49,461 nt of DNA from Erysipelotrichia bacterium. GTDB taxonomy: Bacteria; Bacillota_I; Bacilli_A; Erysipelotrichales; Erysipelotrichaceae. Made by a program: the position numbers and the translations under genes. Under the pieces are notes generated by a model that saw nothing but the letters and a program-made list of their open reading frames with translations, was not told the DNA's origin and made no database searches. The stretch spans positions 1 to 49,461 of the forward strand of contig JAAZJL010000056.1 of assembly GCA_012800355.1 (NCBI GenBank), given 5' to 3'. This document shows, piece by piece, positions 33,974-38,718 of the stretch. The stretch's first letter is position 1; every line of letters starts with the position of its first letter.

Positions 33974-35206
33974 TTATTTCTTTTGTTCTAGTGTAAGTAT
34001 TAAGTTAATTTCTCTTTGTCCTCTTACTACTGTAATCTCTACTGTATCTCCAGCTGAGTAATTACAAAGCGCTGTTCTTAAATCTGTAAGTGATTTGATT
34101 TCAGCTCCATCAAAATTAACAATTACATCCCCAACTCTTAATCCTGAATTTCTTGCTGCATCTGTAACAATTTCTGATACATAAACTCCAAAAGTAGTAA
34201 CGCTAAAATTCCAAGCCTGTTGCATTGTTTCAATAGAAACTCCTCTAATTCCCAGTTGTGGCCTTCCTTCAACATAACCATAAGTAATTAATTGTTTTAC
34301 CACATCAATAGCATAATTAGATGGAATAGCAAAGCCGATACCTTCTATATACTCGCCTGCACTTTTAGCATTAACAATACCTATTAAATTTCCACCAACA
34401 TCAAACAAGCCTCCACCAGAATTTCCTGGACTGATAGCAGTATTTGTTTGTAATAAGACCATTTTTTGACCTGCAATGGTAATTTCTCTACTTAAAGCAC
34501 TTATAATTCCATCAGTTACTGTACCACCTAGTGTTCCTAATGGATTTCCTATCGCAATACAAATTTGACCTACTTTTATTTGGTCTGAATTACCAATTGT
34601 CGCTACTTTTAAACCCTCTGTTTCAATTTTTAATACTGCAATATCACTGACTAAATCTGTTGCAACTAACTCAGCTTTATATTTTTCACCAGAAGTTAAA
34701 ACTACTGTAATGTTAGTAGCATCCTCAATAACATGATTGTTGGTAATAATATAACCATCACTAGAATATATAACTCCTGAGCCTGCTCCTTCAGTTATGT
34801 ATTCGCCATAAAAAGAACTGTATTTAGTTGATTCAGTGTATACTTCAACAATGGTGTCTTTTATATTACTTACTACTTCGCTAATATCGGTTTTTCCTGA
34901 TATAACAACTGTAGGACTGTTTACATTTTGGTTTGGTTGTTCAATTACAACTGTTTTATTTTCGACATTTTTAAGAACTACTTTAGCTGTGATAAAACTG
35001 CTTATTATTGATACAATCAACGTTAAAATTAACATCAATAAAATTATTCCAATAGGAAAACTTCTTTTTTCTTTTTTTTCATTATTGCTTTTTATTCTAT
35101 CAATGGTATCAAAAATGTTTGTTGTACTATTATCGTTATCAACGATTATATAATCATTTTCAAAACTTGATTTTTCTTCCTCTTTATTTTCATATGGTTC
35201 ATTCAT
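33974..35206 (-). CDS. HtrA/DegP-like membrane-anchored serine protease with PDZ domain
   Basis: TNNHVIED, DIAVLKIE, SPGNSGGGLFD triad motifs; C-terminal PDZ. Confidence 0.96.
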   Translation of the reverse strand: MNEPYENKEEEKSSFENDYIIVDNDNSTTNIFDTIDRIKSNNEKKEKRSFPIGIILLMLILTLIVSIISSFITAKVVLKNVENKTVVIEQPNQNVNSPTVVISGKTDISEVVSNIKDTIVEVYTESTKYSSFYGEYITEGAGSGVIYSSDGYIITNNHVIEDATNITVVLTSGEKYKAELVATDLVSDIAVLKIETEGLKVATIGNSDQIKVGQICIAIGNPLGTLGGTVTDGIISALSREITIAGQKMVLLQTNTAISPGNSGGGLFDVGGNLIGIVNAKSAGEYIEGIGFAIPSNYAIDVVKQLITYGYVEGRPQLGIRGVSIETMQQAWNFSVTTFGVYVSEIVTDAARNSGLRVGDVIVNFDGAEIKSLTDLRTALCNYSAGDTVEITVVRGQREINLILTLEQKK

Positions 35207-35246: not shown

Positions 35247-36593
35247 CTACACTTCTTTCTTTTTTAGAGTTAATGCTATTGCTGCAATAAAACTAATTGT
35301 TCCAACTATCGCTGCTGTTAAATAAAGTATTTCTTTAACTCCCATTTTTTCTTCTACCGTTGGATAAGCAGGCAAAGTAAACTTTTGTAATGTTTTTTCA
35401 CTCATTTCATAACTATAAATAGCATCATTACCTTCCAAATCTTTTAAGTAAACTAAGCGATAATTATTCATATTTTCTGCTAAAGAAATCCAACCATCAA
35501 ACTGTTTACCTTCAATGTTTACCTTTATTGGTTTATAAAATTTTTCTAACTCTGTATATTTTGTGTAGTCAATAGCATTAATTAAATATTGTTTTCCATC
35601 AATTTCCAGTGGTTCAAACTTATTTCCAACCACATCGTTTTCTGCATCATATAAATAAAAGTTTTTGTTATTTTCGCTATCAACTAAATATATTAAATTC
35701 AGTTTACCTTTATAGAAAACTACAATTTCGTTTTCTTTTACAAGAATTTCTTTTCTTTCAAACCCTTCAGGAGCATTTACTTTATCTAAATTTACAACTA
35801 CTCCTAAATTTTTATCTTCATAGACGATTTTTGGTTTTTCTTCAACATATAACTTTATTTTATATGTTTTTGTTGTTTTATCTTGAGCAACACAAACTAC
35901 TTCTATTTCATTCCAGCCTTCTTTAACAGTTTCAGTTATTTTATTGATTGTTGCTTTTGAACTACTTGCTTTAGCCAATACCTTAATAGTTTCAGTATTA
36001 AGTGGCGCATAAGCAGTATATTCAAAAACATCTGATTCAAATGGTTGCTCAAATTCTATATTTTCAATCTGCAAAGAAGCTAGTGAAGCATCAGAAGATA
36101 AAGATGTTGTTGTCTCGTTATTCGTTGTTTTAGCCTTTATTTGTAAAGTTTTTACAATTCTTTCACTATATCCTCCAACATATTGCAGTGAATTATTACC
36201 TACAAACTCTATCGTATTTATTCCGATGTTTGTTAATCCTATTTTTTTTGTTGAAAAAAAAATCGTTACAGTTATAGAAGTATTCTCGTTTCCATCAACA
36301 ATCATTATTCCATTATCTTGATTAATAGTGACTGCATCTGCTCCAGTAAAATTATGTTTAGAATATCCCAAATATTTTTTGTCGTAAGAAATAATCATTT
36401 TTACTCCGCCTACTCCATCTTCACAAGAGAATTTTATTGTTAATTTAACTGTGTTTGATAACACCACTGATTCACTAGATAAAGATGCTGTTACTTTACC
36501 TGTAGCTGCATTAATTGGTTTTATTGTTGATAATATTATTGTAAGCATTGTTATCAATACAAAAATTCTTTTTTTCATATATTTATATTTCAC
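35247..36593 (-). CDS. membrane-anchored surface protein: cohesin-like domain + cadherin-like beta-sandwich domain
   Basis: signal peptide; VTASLSSESVVLSNTVKLTIKFSCEDGVGGVKMIISYDKKYLGY cohesin-like; LASLQIENIEFEQPFESDVFEYTAYAP...TKTYKIKLYV (PF12733-like); C-terminal TM + KKKEV. Confidence 0.75.
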   Translation of the reverse strand: MKYKYMKKRIFVLITMLTIILSTIKPINAATGKVTASLSSESVVLSNTVKLTIKFSCEDGVGGVKMIISYDKKYLGYSKHNFTGADAVTINQDNGIMIVDGNENTSITVTIFFSTKKIGLTNIGINTIEFVGNNSLQYVGGYSERIVKTLQIKAKTTNNETTTSLSSDASLASLQIENIEFEQPFESDVFEYTAYAPLNTETIKVLAKASSSKATINKITETVKEGWNEIEVVCVAQDKTTKTYKIKLYVEEKPKIVYEDKNLGVVVNLDKVNAPEGFERKEILVKENEIVVFYKGKLNLIYLVDSENNKNFYLYDAENDVVGNKFEPLEIDGKQYLINAIDYTKYTELEKFYKPIKVNIEGKQFDGWISLAENMNNYRLVYLKDLEGNDAIYSYEMSEKTLQKFTLPAYPTVEEKMGVKEILYLTAAIVGTISFIAAIALTLKKKEV

Positions 36594-36595
36594 CT

Positions 36596-38398
36596 TTATT
36601 GTTCAATGTTTCCTATTTCTAATAAATATTTTCTTAAATGTAAATAACCTACCATAGACAACTCTTTTTCTCCATTAATCTCTGCTGCTTTTTTCTCAAT
36701 ACTATTCATTTCGTATATCTCTAAAAGCGCTTTTCGATATATTAGATAATCAAGTGTTCCAATTATTCCATCTCCATCAATATCACCTTTTATTACTATG
36801 GTATAAGTACTTTCTCCTTCTTCACCAACGATTATTATGGTATCTCCTGTTGCAAGTAATCCTTCTTTAGATTTTTCCTTTCCATTTCTTTCAATTCTAA
36901 TATTTACACCTGTATTCATTAGTGCAATTCTATTTAACAGTTGTTGATAACTTGCTCCTATATCAAAGCCTGTTAAATAGCCTGAATCATTTTTTAAATC
37001 TAAGTCTAAAATTAAATCACCAGTATAATACTCTTCATTTGGAATAGTTTCTTCAACTTCAGGTAACACAACTTCTGTTGGTAGAGCTGTTTTTTCAGGC
37101 ATTTCTAAGTATATTGGAATACTGAAAGTTAAATTTCCTTCCAATATATCAGCCAACCTATAGTTGGTGTACATCATTCTTCCTTCTGAAAAAGCTGCTC
37201 TAACATTAGTCGCATATTGATGCCAATATTTGCCAGTGGCACAGTTGTATTTTTGATAGTACAAAGTGTCTTGACCAACATTAATATATCCATCCGCAAT
37301 CCACAATGCTCCACCTTTAATAGATTTTTCAATGGTGTTCCAAGGTCGACCATAACTTCCTTCCTTAGCAGCATATATTAATCCATTCTTCCAACTTTCC
37401 TTTCCTGAATAGGCGTGAATGTTGTAAAAATTGTAAATATTAGAATATACCACCCCGTTATGTTCAAACTTTCTACCATCTACTGCAGCTGAACCATTTA
37501 CTCCTTGTTCATTTCTTGCTTTTACTGCTAAGAATATTGGCGAAATTTGAGCTTGTTGTCCTGCTTCGTAGAAAAGTGTCGCATAACTTTTAGTTGTATT
37601 TTCATCTATTTGAACTTCGCCTTTCATAAATGTAATATTCAATATTTGTTGAACACACTCAGGTTGTTCAGTTTCATTAAAAGAAAGTTTTAAAAATTGG
37701 AAAATCTCTTTTTCGTTTAGGAAGTTTCTTGGGTCCATAAAATAAGCTATGGTTTCAGTATTGGCTTGATACCAATTATAACCATCTAATGCTATATATT
37801 GACCTGTTTCTGGATCATAAGCTCCTTGTCTAGTGCTTCTTAAAGCTAAGTTACTTCCATCTATTAAACTTTTTCCTAGTACATCTTGAGCTTGTAAAAC
37901 TGTAGCAAAAGAAGTATTTGTATGAAAAGCTTTAAATATCCAATTAGGATGTAAAGTGTGTATATATCTTAAATATTCTCTATATTCCTCTGGGAAACCT
38001 TCGTTTTCTAAATGCTGTTCAAATGCTTCATCTAATTCATAATAATGCAATATGATGTAATCTTCTCTAACCCAAGTTTGATATTCAACATTATTAATAA
38101 TATTAACGACGTTATACCAAAGCTCATTTTTATCATTTCTCTGTTTTCCTATGACTTTGTATGAGACATCTTTAATATAATACTGATTTTTACCATTTAT
38201 TTGCAGAATAGCATAACTTGTTGAAGGACCTGTTCTTACTCGCACATCACTTTGTGTGACTTCTAAATACACAGTTTCTTCTTGTTGTTGTTCTTGTTCA
38301 GATTCTGGTTGAGTTTCTTCTGCAAAAACATTGTTAAAAGGCTTAGTATTAATAAGCATCGTTATAAATAATAGGACAATTAATATTTTTTTAAGCAC
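36596..38398 (-). CDS. secreted N-acetylglucosaminidase (autolysin): SH3-like + glucosaminidase + dockerin-like C-terminus
   Basis: VRVRTGPSTSYAILQ SH3; PIFLAVKARNEQGVNGSA...YNFYNIHAYSG glucosaminidase; IKGDIDGDGIIGTLDYLIYRKALL...AAEINGEKELSMVGYLHLRKYLLE dockerin-like. Confidence 0.82.
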   Translation of the reverse strand: MLKKILIVLLFITMLINTKPFNNVFAEETQPESEQEQQQEETVYLEVTQSDVRVRTGPSTSYAILQINGKNQYYIKDVSYKVIGKQRNDKNELWYNVVNIINNVEYQTWVREDYIILHYYELDEAFEQHLENEGFPEEYREYLRYIHTLHPNWIFKAFHTNTSFATVLQAQDVLGKSLIDGSNLALRSTRQGAYDPETGQYIALDGYNWYQANTETIAYFMDPRNFLNEKEIFQFLKLSFNETEQPECVQQILNITFMKGEVQIDENTTKSYATLFYEAGQQAQISPIFLAVKARNEQGVNGSAAVDGRKFEHNGVVYSNIYNFYNIHAYSGKESWKNGLIYAAKEGSYGRPWNTIEKSIKGGALWIADGYINVGQDTLYYQKYNCATGKYWHQYATNVRAAFSEGRMMYTNYRLADILEGNLTFSIPIYLEMPEKTALPTEVVLPEVEETIPNEEYYTGDLILDLDLKNDSGYLTGFDIGASYQQLLNRIALMNTGVNIRIERNGKEKSKEGLLATGDTIIIVGEEGESTYTIVIKGDIDGDGIIGTLDYLIYRKALLEIYEMNSIEKKAAEINGEKELSMVGYLHLRKYLLEIGNIEQ

Positions 38399-38476: not shown

Positions 38477-38718
38477 TTATCCACATATGTGTAAATTGTT
38501 TGTAAATTTAAATTCTCTTTTAATGAAAGGGGTTTTCCCCTTTTATCTTGTGGATAATTCATGTGGAATACTAATTTCACTCCAAGTTATCCACATTTTC
38601 CACTGTTTGTAGGTTTTTATTCACTAGTTATCCACATATAAAAGTCGTGGATTATTGTGGATAACTAAAAATTTACTTTGTTTATATATGTTTTTTACAT
38701 TAATTTTATTGTGGATAA
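38477..38718. promoter_or_regulatory. oriC: oriC: DnaA-box cluster upstream of dnaA
   Basis: Exact TTATCCACA boxes: + 38477-38485, - 38549-38557, + 38587-38595, + 38628-38636, - 38656-38664, - 38710-38718; AT-rich tract follows. Confidence 0.93.

Follow-up and report, generated by a model that had tools for sequence, protein, structure and literature searches.

A candidate cohesin–dockerin pair for holding a cell wall hydrolase at the membrane of an Erysipelotrichia bacterium

To our knowledge, cohesin–dockerin biology has been described almost entirely around secreted complexes that digest polysaccharides. The locus described here raises the question of whether the same kind of clamp is used to hold a cell wall hydrolase at the membrane. 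It lies in a stretch of 49,461 nucleotides (the window; contig C5 of a 1.48-Mb genome that is 80.7% complete) from an Erysipelotrichia bacterium, where a gene for a glucosaminidase with a C-terminal dockerin (gene 1) precedes a gene for a predicted membrane protein with a cohesin-like domain at its N-terminal end (gene 2). An initial annotation, made from the sequence alone, had proposed that the two products form a dedicated tethering pair in a non-cellulosomal, origin-linked locus near an htrA protease gene. The features of the locus are collected in Table 1.

Table 1. Features of the two-gene locus and of the adjoining protease gene (positions are those of the window)
Feature	Position	Strand	Size or basis
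Gene 1, secreted SagB-like glucosaminidase with C-terminal dockerin	36596..38398	(-)	600 aa, GTG start
Gene 1 signal peptide, residues 1-26 (...NVFA/EE)	38321..38398	(-)	sequence; hydrophobic segment 1-19
Gene 1 SH3-like stretch, residues 50-114	38057..38251	(-)	sub-threshold here, 9.8 bits (Pfam)
Gene 1 SagB-like glucosaminidase domain, residues 183-413	37160..37852	(-)	NF052642; PDB matches
Gene 1 Glu297, catalytic candidate	37508-37510	(-)	invariant in 9 homologues, one of them dockerin-less
Gene 1 unnamed pre-dockerin module, residues 458-535	36794..37027	(-)	tblastn
Gene 1 type I dockerin	36620..36790	(-)	PF00404 above cut-off
Gene 1 calcium loop 1, intact, DIDGDGIIGTLD	36749-36784	(-)	loop check
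Gene 1 calcium loop 2, degenerate	36647-36682	(-)	loop check
Gene 2, membrane anchor	35247..36593	(-)	448 aa from GTG; probable true start ATG 36578, 443 aa
Gene 2 signal peptide	36504..36578	(-)	sequence; hydrophobic segment 9-30
Gene 2 N-domain, cohesin fold, residues 33-154	36132..36497	(-)	hhalign; AF2; PDB fold search
Gene 2 cadherin-like beta-sandwich, residues 172-249	35847..36080	(-)	PF12733, E 1e-8
Gene 2 conserved domain without Pfam name, residues 254-410	35364..35834	(-)	family-wide conservation
Gene 2 C-terminal transmembrane helix, residues 421-445, then short basic tail	35259..35333	(-)	hydrophobicity
htrA-type protease	33974..35206	(-)	40 nt downstream of gene 2; synteny in 13 loci

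The catalytic part of gene 1 matches the profile NF052642 (E 1e-18) and, in a PDB search, the glucosaminidases AtlA and SagB. Its score of 67.5 bits lies far below the curated cut-off of 425 bits, and the enzyme is therefore described as SagB-like and not as SagB. Glu297 is the likely catalytic residue. A hydrophobicity check found no further hydrophobic segment beyond residue 19. The annotated order of SH3, glucosaminidase and dockerin holds for the last two; the SH3-like stretch stays below threshold in the window protein, but SH3_3 is significant in many relatives by profile search. The C-terminal part (residues 460–600) is the only portion of gene 1 that matches other dockerin proteins of the order in tblastn, and the unnamed module ahead of the dockerin is thus common to them. 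Within it, PF00404 covers residues 537–593 over the whole profile (1–57 of 57) with E 9e-6 and 26.2 bits, above the cut-off of 22.9 bits, and scores 30.9 bits when the whole genome is scanned. As had been noted from the sequence, the first dockerin repeat is intact and the second is degenerate; loop 2 is degenerate in the window and in the entire genus, so that the two loops with D/N ligands of a type I dockerin are not both present. The loop pattern is matched at least twice in 48 of the 75 dockerin partners considered below.

Gene 2 has the annotated architecture of signal peptide, cohesin-like domain, cadherin-like domain and C-terminal transmembrane helix. The cadherin-like domain is present in all 50 family members examined, and residues 254–410 gave no Pfam match above the cut-off in the window protein or in family members. 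The GTG codon of gene 2 does lie 2 nt after gene 1, as annotated, but it falls within a Shine-Dalgarno-like sequence (AAAGGTGA), and more distant relatives start at MKK, which corresponds to the ATG at 36578. For these two reasons the start is probably that ATG, with a gap between the genes of 17 nt instead of 2 nt.

The assignment of the N-domain of gene 2 to the cohesins comes from profile–profile comparison and from its predicted fold. Pfam gave no match to PF00963 (Cohesin) in gene 2, and NCBIfam was likewise negative for cohesin; among 50 members of the gene-2 family, Pfam Cohesin reached E<0.1 in one. When a profile of 12 N-domains from proteins paired with SagB-type enzymes (SagB-type N-domains, the window's own clade) was aligned by hhalign with 29 cohesins of the same order that lie above the Pfam cut-off, the probability was 96.1, whereas the controls, neighbouring domains of the same proteins, gave 1.7 and 0.2. 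The N-domains of the GH73-type pairs reach 46% against cohesins directly and 97.3% against the SagB-type N-domains; their direct link to cohesins is weak, and the cohesin assignment is therefore most secure in the clade to which the window belongs. An AlphaFold2 model of the N-domain alone (pLDDT 86.4, pTM 0.82) has 10 strands, and in a comparison with 350,542 PDB chains its top nine matches were all cohesins (TM about 0.5–0.7), the best being a cohesin-like module of Clostridium perfringens. By model, fold search and hhalign the N-domain has the nine-stranded jelly-roll fold common to solved cohesins. The fold search with a model of full-length gene 2, built from a 4-row alignment, also placed cohesins high, but this model has a pLDDT of 51 and was left out of the domain claims; phmmer of gene 2 against the PDB returned nothing useful. 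Both halves of the proposed pair are thus matched by profile or structure, the dockerin by Pfam and the cohesin by hhalign and fold, and the refuting outcome named in the initial annotation, the lack of any such match, did not arise.

The order dnaA, gene 1, gene 2, htrA is shared by the seven genomes of the genus and recurs in one related genus. The htrA gene stands near the pair, as annotated, and in the window dnaA and DnaA boxes lie upstream; the link to the origin is limited to this genus and the one related genus. The window contains six perfect DnaA boxes (TTATCCACA) in total, and all of them fall inside 242 bp of the DNA that separates gene 1 from dnaA (38477–38718), a probable oriC.

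Of 295 genomes of the order, 57 have a strong match to the gene-2 family by profile search (E<1e-30), and the family also occurs in a second family of the class, with small genomes; a search at the level of the phylum, with Clostridia outside its scope, added no family beyond the class. Loci of the gene-2 family were read with their flanks in 81 cases, of which three are cut by contig ends. In 75 of the 78 assessable loci a dockerin gene directly adjoins the anchor gene on the same strand, 73 times upstream (gaps of -17 to +30 nt) and twice downstream. A hydrophobic segment after the signal peptide is absent in 74 of these 75 partners, which are therefore soluble proteins ending in a dockerin, and their neighbour is a membrane protein starting with a cohesin-like domain. 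The three exceptions are of two kinds. (i) In loci L198 and L199 the anchor has no N-domain, no dockerin was found in either genome, and the SagB homologue in these genomes keeps its own strongly hydrophobic N-terminal helix. (ii) In locus L182 (genome G472) the anchor retains its N-domain beside a gene, 9 nt upstream, for an 883-residue SH3-rich protein without a dockerin; this enzyme is apparently SagB-type.

The cargo varies while the anchor is constant. Among the first 49 partners, 46 match Dockerin_1; 31 have a PF01832 glucosaminidase (GH73-type), 12 are SagB-type, three are GH25 enzymes and three are hydrolases of the metallo-beta-lactamase fold. A second set of partners contains more SagB-type enzymes, as well as proteases beside longer cohesin proteins. 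In three loci (L100, L093 and L109 of genomes G076, G048 and G088) the dockerin cargo is a ComEC-like hydrolase of the metallo-beta-lactamase fold in place of a wall hydrolase, and two of these three genomes also carry a glucosaminidase pair. In loci L203–L210, dockerin proteins (glucosaminidase, subtilase and others) lie near or beside longer cohesin proteins with several cadherin-like domains.

The dockerin and the N-domain also diverge in step. Where one genome carries two pairs, its dockerins and N-domains cluster by cargo and not by genome. Where the enzyme and the anchor body are conserved, dockerin identity follows N-domain identity with a partial r of 0.80 over 56 comparisons, and 31 independent sister contrasts give a partial r of 0.79 (permutation p<1e-4), with no residual relation of the anchor body or the enzyme to the dockerin. 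These sister contrasts supersede a global distance correlation, which was replaced because shared ancestry inflates it. On the DNA, loci L092 and L099 are about 88% identical up to a block of ~600 bp in which identity drops to about 50%, and beyond it identity is about 90%; the divergent block extends from just after the first calcium-loop motif to near the cadherin-like domain. Between L099 and L102 the ~600-bp block is about 96% identical and the flanks about 85%. Similar drops are seen in L095/L108 and L042/L078, and L042, L078 and L045 form a further set with a swapped block of ~600 bp that runs across the boundary from dockerin gene to anchor gene. In these loci the profiles attribute the joint change to a ~600-bp block swapped across the gene boundary. 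Because the dockerin and N-domain sequences adjoin each other, their co-divergence is partly confounded by recombination linkage. One contrast escapes that linkage: in genomes G040 and G045 a GH25 dockerin protein encoded about 2.8 kb away, across DNA that is 85% conserved, carries a dockerin of the same type as the pair in its genome, clearly in G040 (77% versus 41% identity) and by a small difference in G045 (62% versus 59%). The window is itself an exception to strict co-divergence, its N-domain being 57% and its dockerin 88% identical to those of L024; the block swaps were seen in related genera and the change in the window's own genus is milder. We suggest tentatively, at somewhat less than even odds, that the dockerin end of gene 1 and the cohesin-fold start of gene 2 make up a single, hypervariable cassette for recognition, which lineages swap as a ~600-bp block between a conserved enzyme and a conserved anchor, and whose specificity is under diversifying selection. 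With such a cassette a cell might, for instance, capture its own hydrolase and not those of its neighbours or of its other pairs.

Taken together, the adjacency with changing cargo, the joint absence of dockerin and N-domain, their co-divergence and the presence of one dockerin gene in five of the seven genomes of the genus support the proposal that genes 1 and 2 encode a dedicated, non-cellulosomal cohesin–dockerin pair that holds a wall hydrolase at the membrane. We give this reading a probability of roughly 0.8. Counting against it are the degenerate loop 2, the linkage that partly confounds the co-divergence, the departure of the window from L024, the 80.7% completeness of the genome, the presence of a second cohesin-like anchor in the genus (described below) and the cohesin domain of L182 that has no dockerin neighbour. 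The product of gene 1, a soluble SagB-like N-acetylglucosaminidase, would be exported by means of its signal peptide, and its dockerin would bind the cohesin-fold N-domain of gene 2, presumably in a calcium-dependent manner through the single intact loop. The hydrolase would then be kept just outside the membrane, at the membrane face of the wall, where tethering may benefit the cell and where, by analogy with known SagB enzymes, newly made glycan strands could be trimmed or released. The pair would stand in for the N-terminal membrane anchor that SagB-like relatives without a dockerin retain on the enzyme itself.

A stronger claim, compatible with the tether, is that the anchor is a functional substitute for SpdC. 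SpdC, a membrane protein of Staphylococcus aureus, serves as a scaffold for SagB: it binds the enzyme at the membrane and places it so that new strands are released and cut to length (PMC12272431, PMC10581084). By this account gene 2 would orient the enzyme toward nascent strands and set glycan length; the enzyme of gene 1 is SagB-like, and residues 254–410 together with the cadherin-like domain could position it. However, the same type of anchor serves cargo other than SagB, such as GH25 enzymes and metallo-hydrolases, so that orientation for strand release cannot be its general role. An SpdC-like working of the SagB-type pairs is plausible by analogy, and the substitution as a whole is a possibility that we regard as somewhat doubtful, at about one chance in three.

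The remaining alternatives question the partners themselves. The N-domain might be a generic surface beta-sandwich, for example an Ig-like adhesin, that resembles cohesins only through a common fold: Pfam Cohesin does not hit the window protein, the fold search also lists integrin, pilin and complement domains, and the GH73-type N-domains align with cohesins at 46%. Such a domain would hardly be expected to have cohesins as its nine best fold matches, a 96.1% hhalign probability in the window's clade with controls near zero, hits of Pfam Cohesin that fall short of the cut-off in the corresponding domain of the relatives G003 and G254, and a link to dockerins through adjacency and co-divergence, and we consider this account improbable. 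Equally improbable is that the pairing is a relic, in which binding has been lost from the dockerin or the N-domain in this genus and operon linkage alone preserves the two genes. The degeneracy of loop 2 across the genus, the score of the N-domain below the Pfam threshold and its drift from L024, in which the dockerin has not taken part, are what one would see in a relic, but close relatives conserve loop 1, the helix that follows loop 2 and the C-terminal tail, and both domains occur in the same order in all seven genomes.

The genome encodes a second protein with a signal peptide, a cohesin-like domain (Pfam Cohesin, E 4e-4), a cadherin-like domain and a transmembrane helix (contig C66 of genome G000; L046:6622-7713). 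Its gene is flanked by glpK and a gene for an Mrp-type ATPase and has no dockerin neighbour. Similar proteins of ~340–360 residues occur in most genomes of the genus, with the dockerin neighbour absent or unclear. That the dockerin binds such a cohesin, recognizable by Pfam and widespread in the genus, and that gene 2 is merely an unrelated co-transcribed surface protein is the least likely account, as the co-divergence and the adjacency seen in 75 of the 78 loci, which span several families, favour gene 2 as the partner; gene 2 and the C66 protein could also both bind the dockerin.

A survey for other dockerin proteins, which the initial annotation had suggested, found only gene 1 above the cut-off in the window's genome and likewise a single dockerin in genome G001 of the genus, which is 99% complete and is one of the five with one dockerin gene. 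A candidate second dockerin on contig C67 was rejected as a chance match over 10 positions in a large protein with D-rich repeats. A cellulosome, with multiple dockerin enzymes on a multi-cohesin scaffoldin, is rejected in view of the single dockerin and of an anchor with one cohesin-like domain, and the non-cellulosomal character proposed for the locus stands.

The pair resembles several known systems in part. Like cellulosomal anchoring, it combines a dockerin-bearing enzyme with a cohesin-bearing surface protein, and the dockerin is type I-like and the partner has the cohesin fold; in cellulosomes, however, many enzymes sit on a scaffoldin that is attached to the surface through SLH modules or sortase (PMC12484212), whereas here one dockerin gene accompanies one anchor, the cargo is mostly wall hydrolases and attachment is by a membrane helix. 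As with SagB and SpdC (PMC12272431), a SagB-like glucosaminidase is paired with a membrane protein, but SpdC is an integral protein of the CAAX-protease family and gene 2 encodes a single-helix protein with cohesin-like and cadherin-like domains, while the enzyme of gene 1, unlike SagB, has a dockerin in place of its own membrane anchor. The C. perfringens cohesins (PDB 2jh2 and 2w1n), which give the best fold match to the N-domain, also occur outside a cellulosome, although they are carried on secreted glycoside hydrolases (2w1n is from GH84C) and not on a membrane anchor. Ruminococcal cellulosomes are reported to include wall hydrolases with dockerins, the 'lyticome' idea (PMC6403190); those peptidoglycan hydrolases are described as cargo of the cellulosome scaffoldin, and here a dedicated two-gene membrane tether is proposed without a cellulosome. 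No description of such a pair was found among the open-access papers covered by the search. The parts and the type of interaction are familiar; what is provisionally new is the proposed tethering to the membrane by a dedicated partner, together with a recognition pair whose two sides change jointly.

The finding suggests that, in many Bacilli, some of them with genomes of 1.0–1.5 Mb, clamps of this type tether wall hydrolases to the membrane one to one. It provides dozens of natural cognate pairs for work on specificity, in which the joint change of plug and socket is testable by domain exchange, and it suggests how these bacteria may hold a potentially dangerous hydrolase at the membrane.
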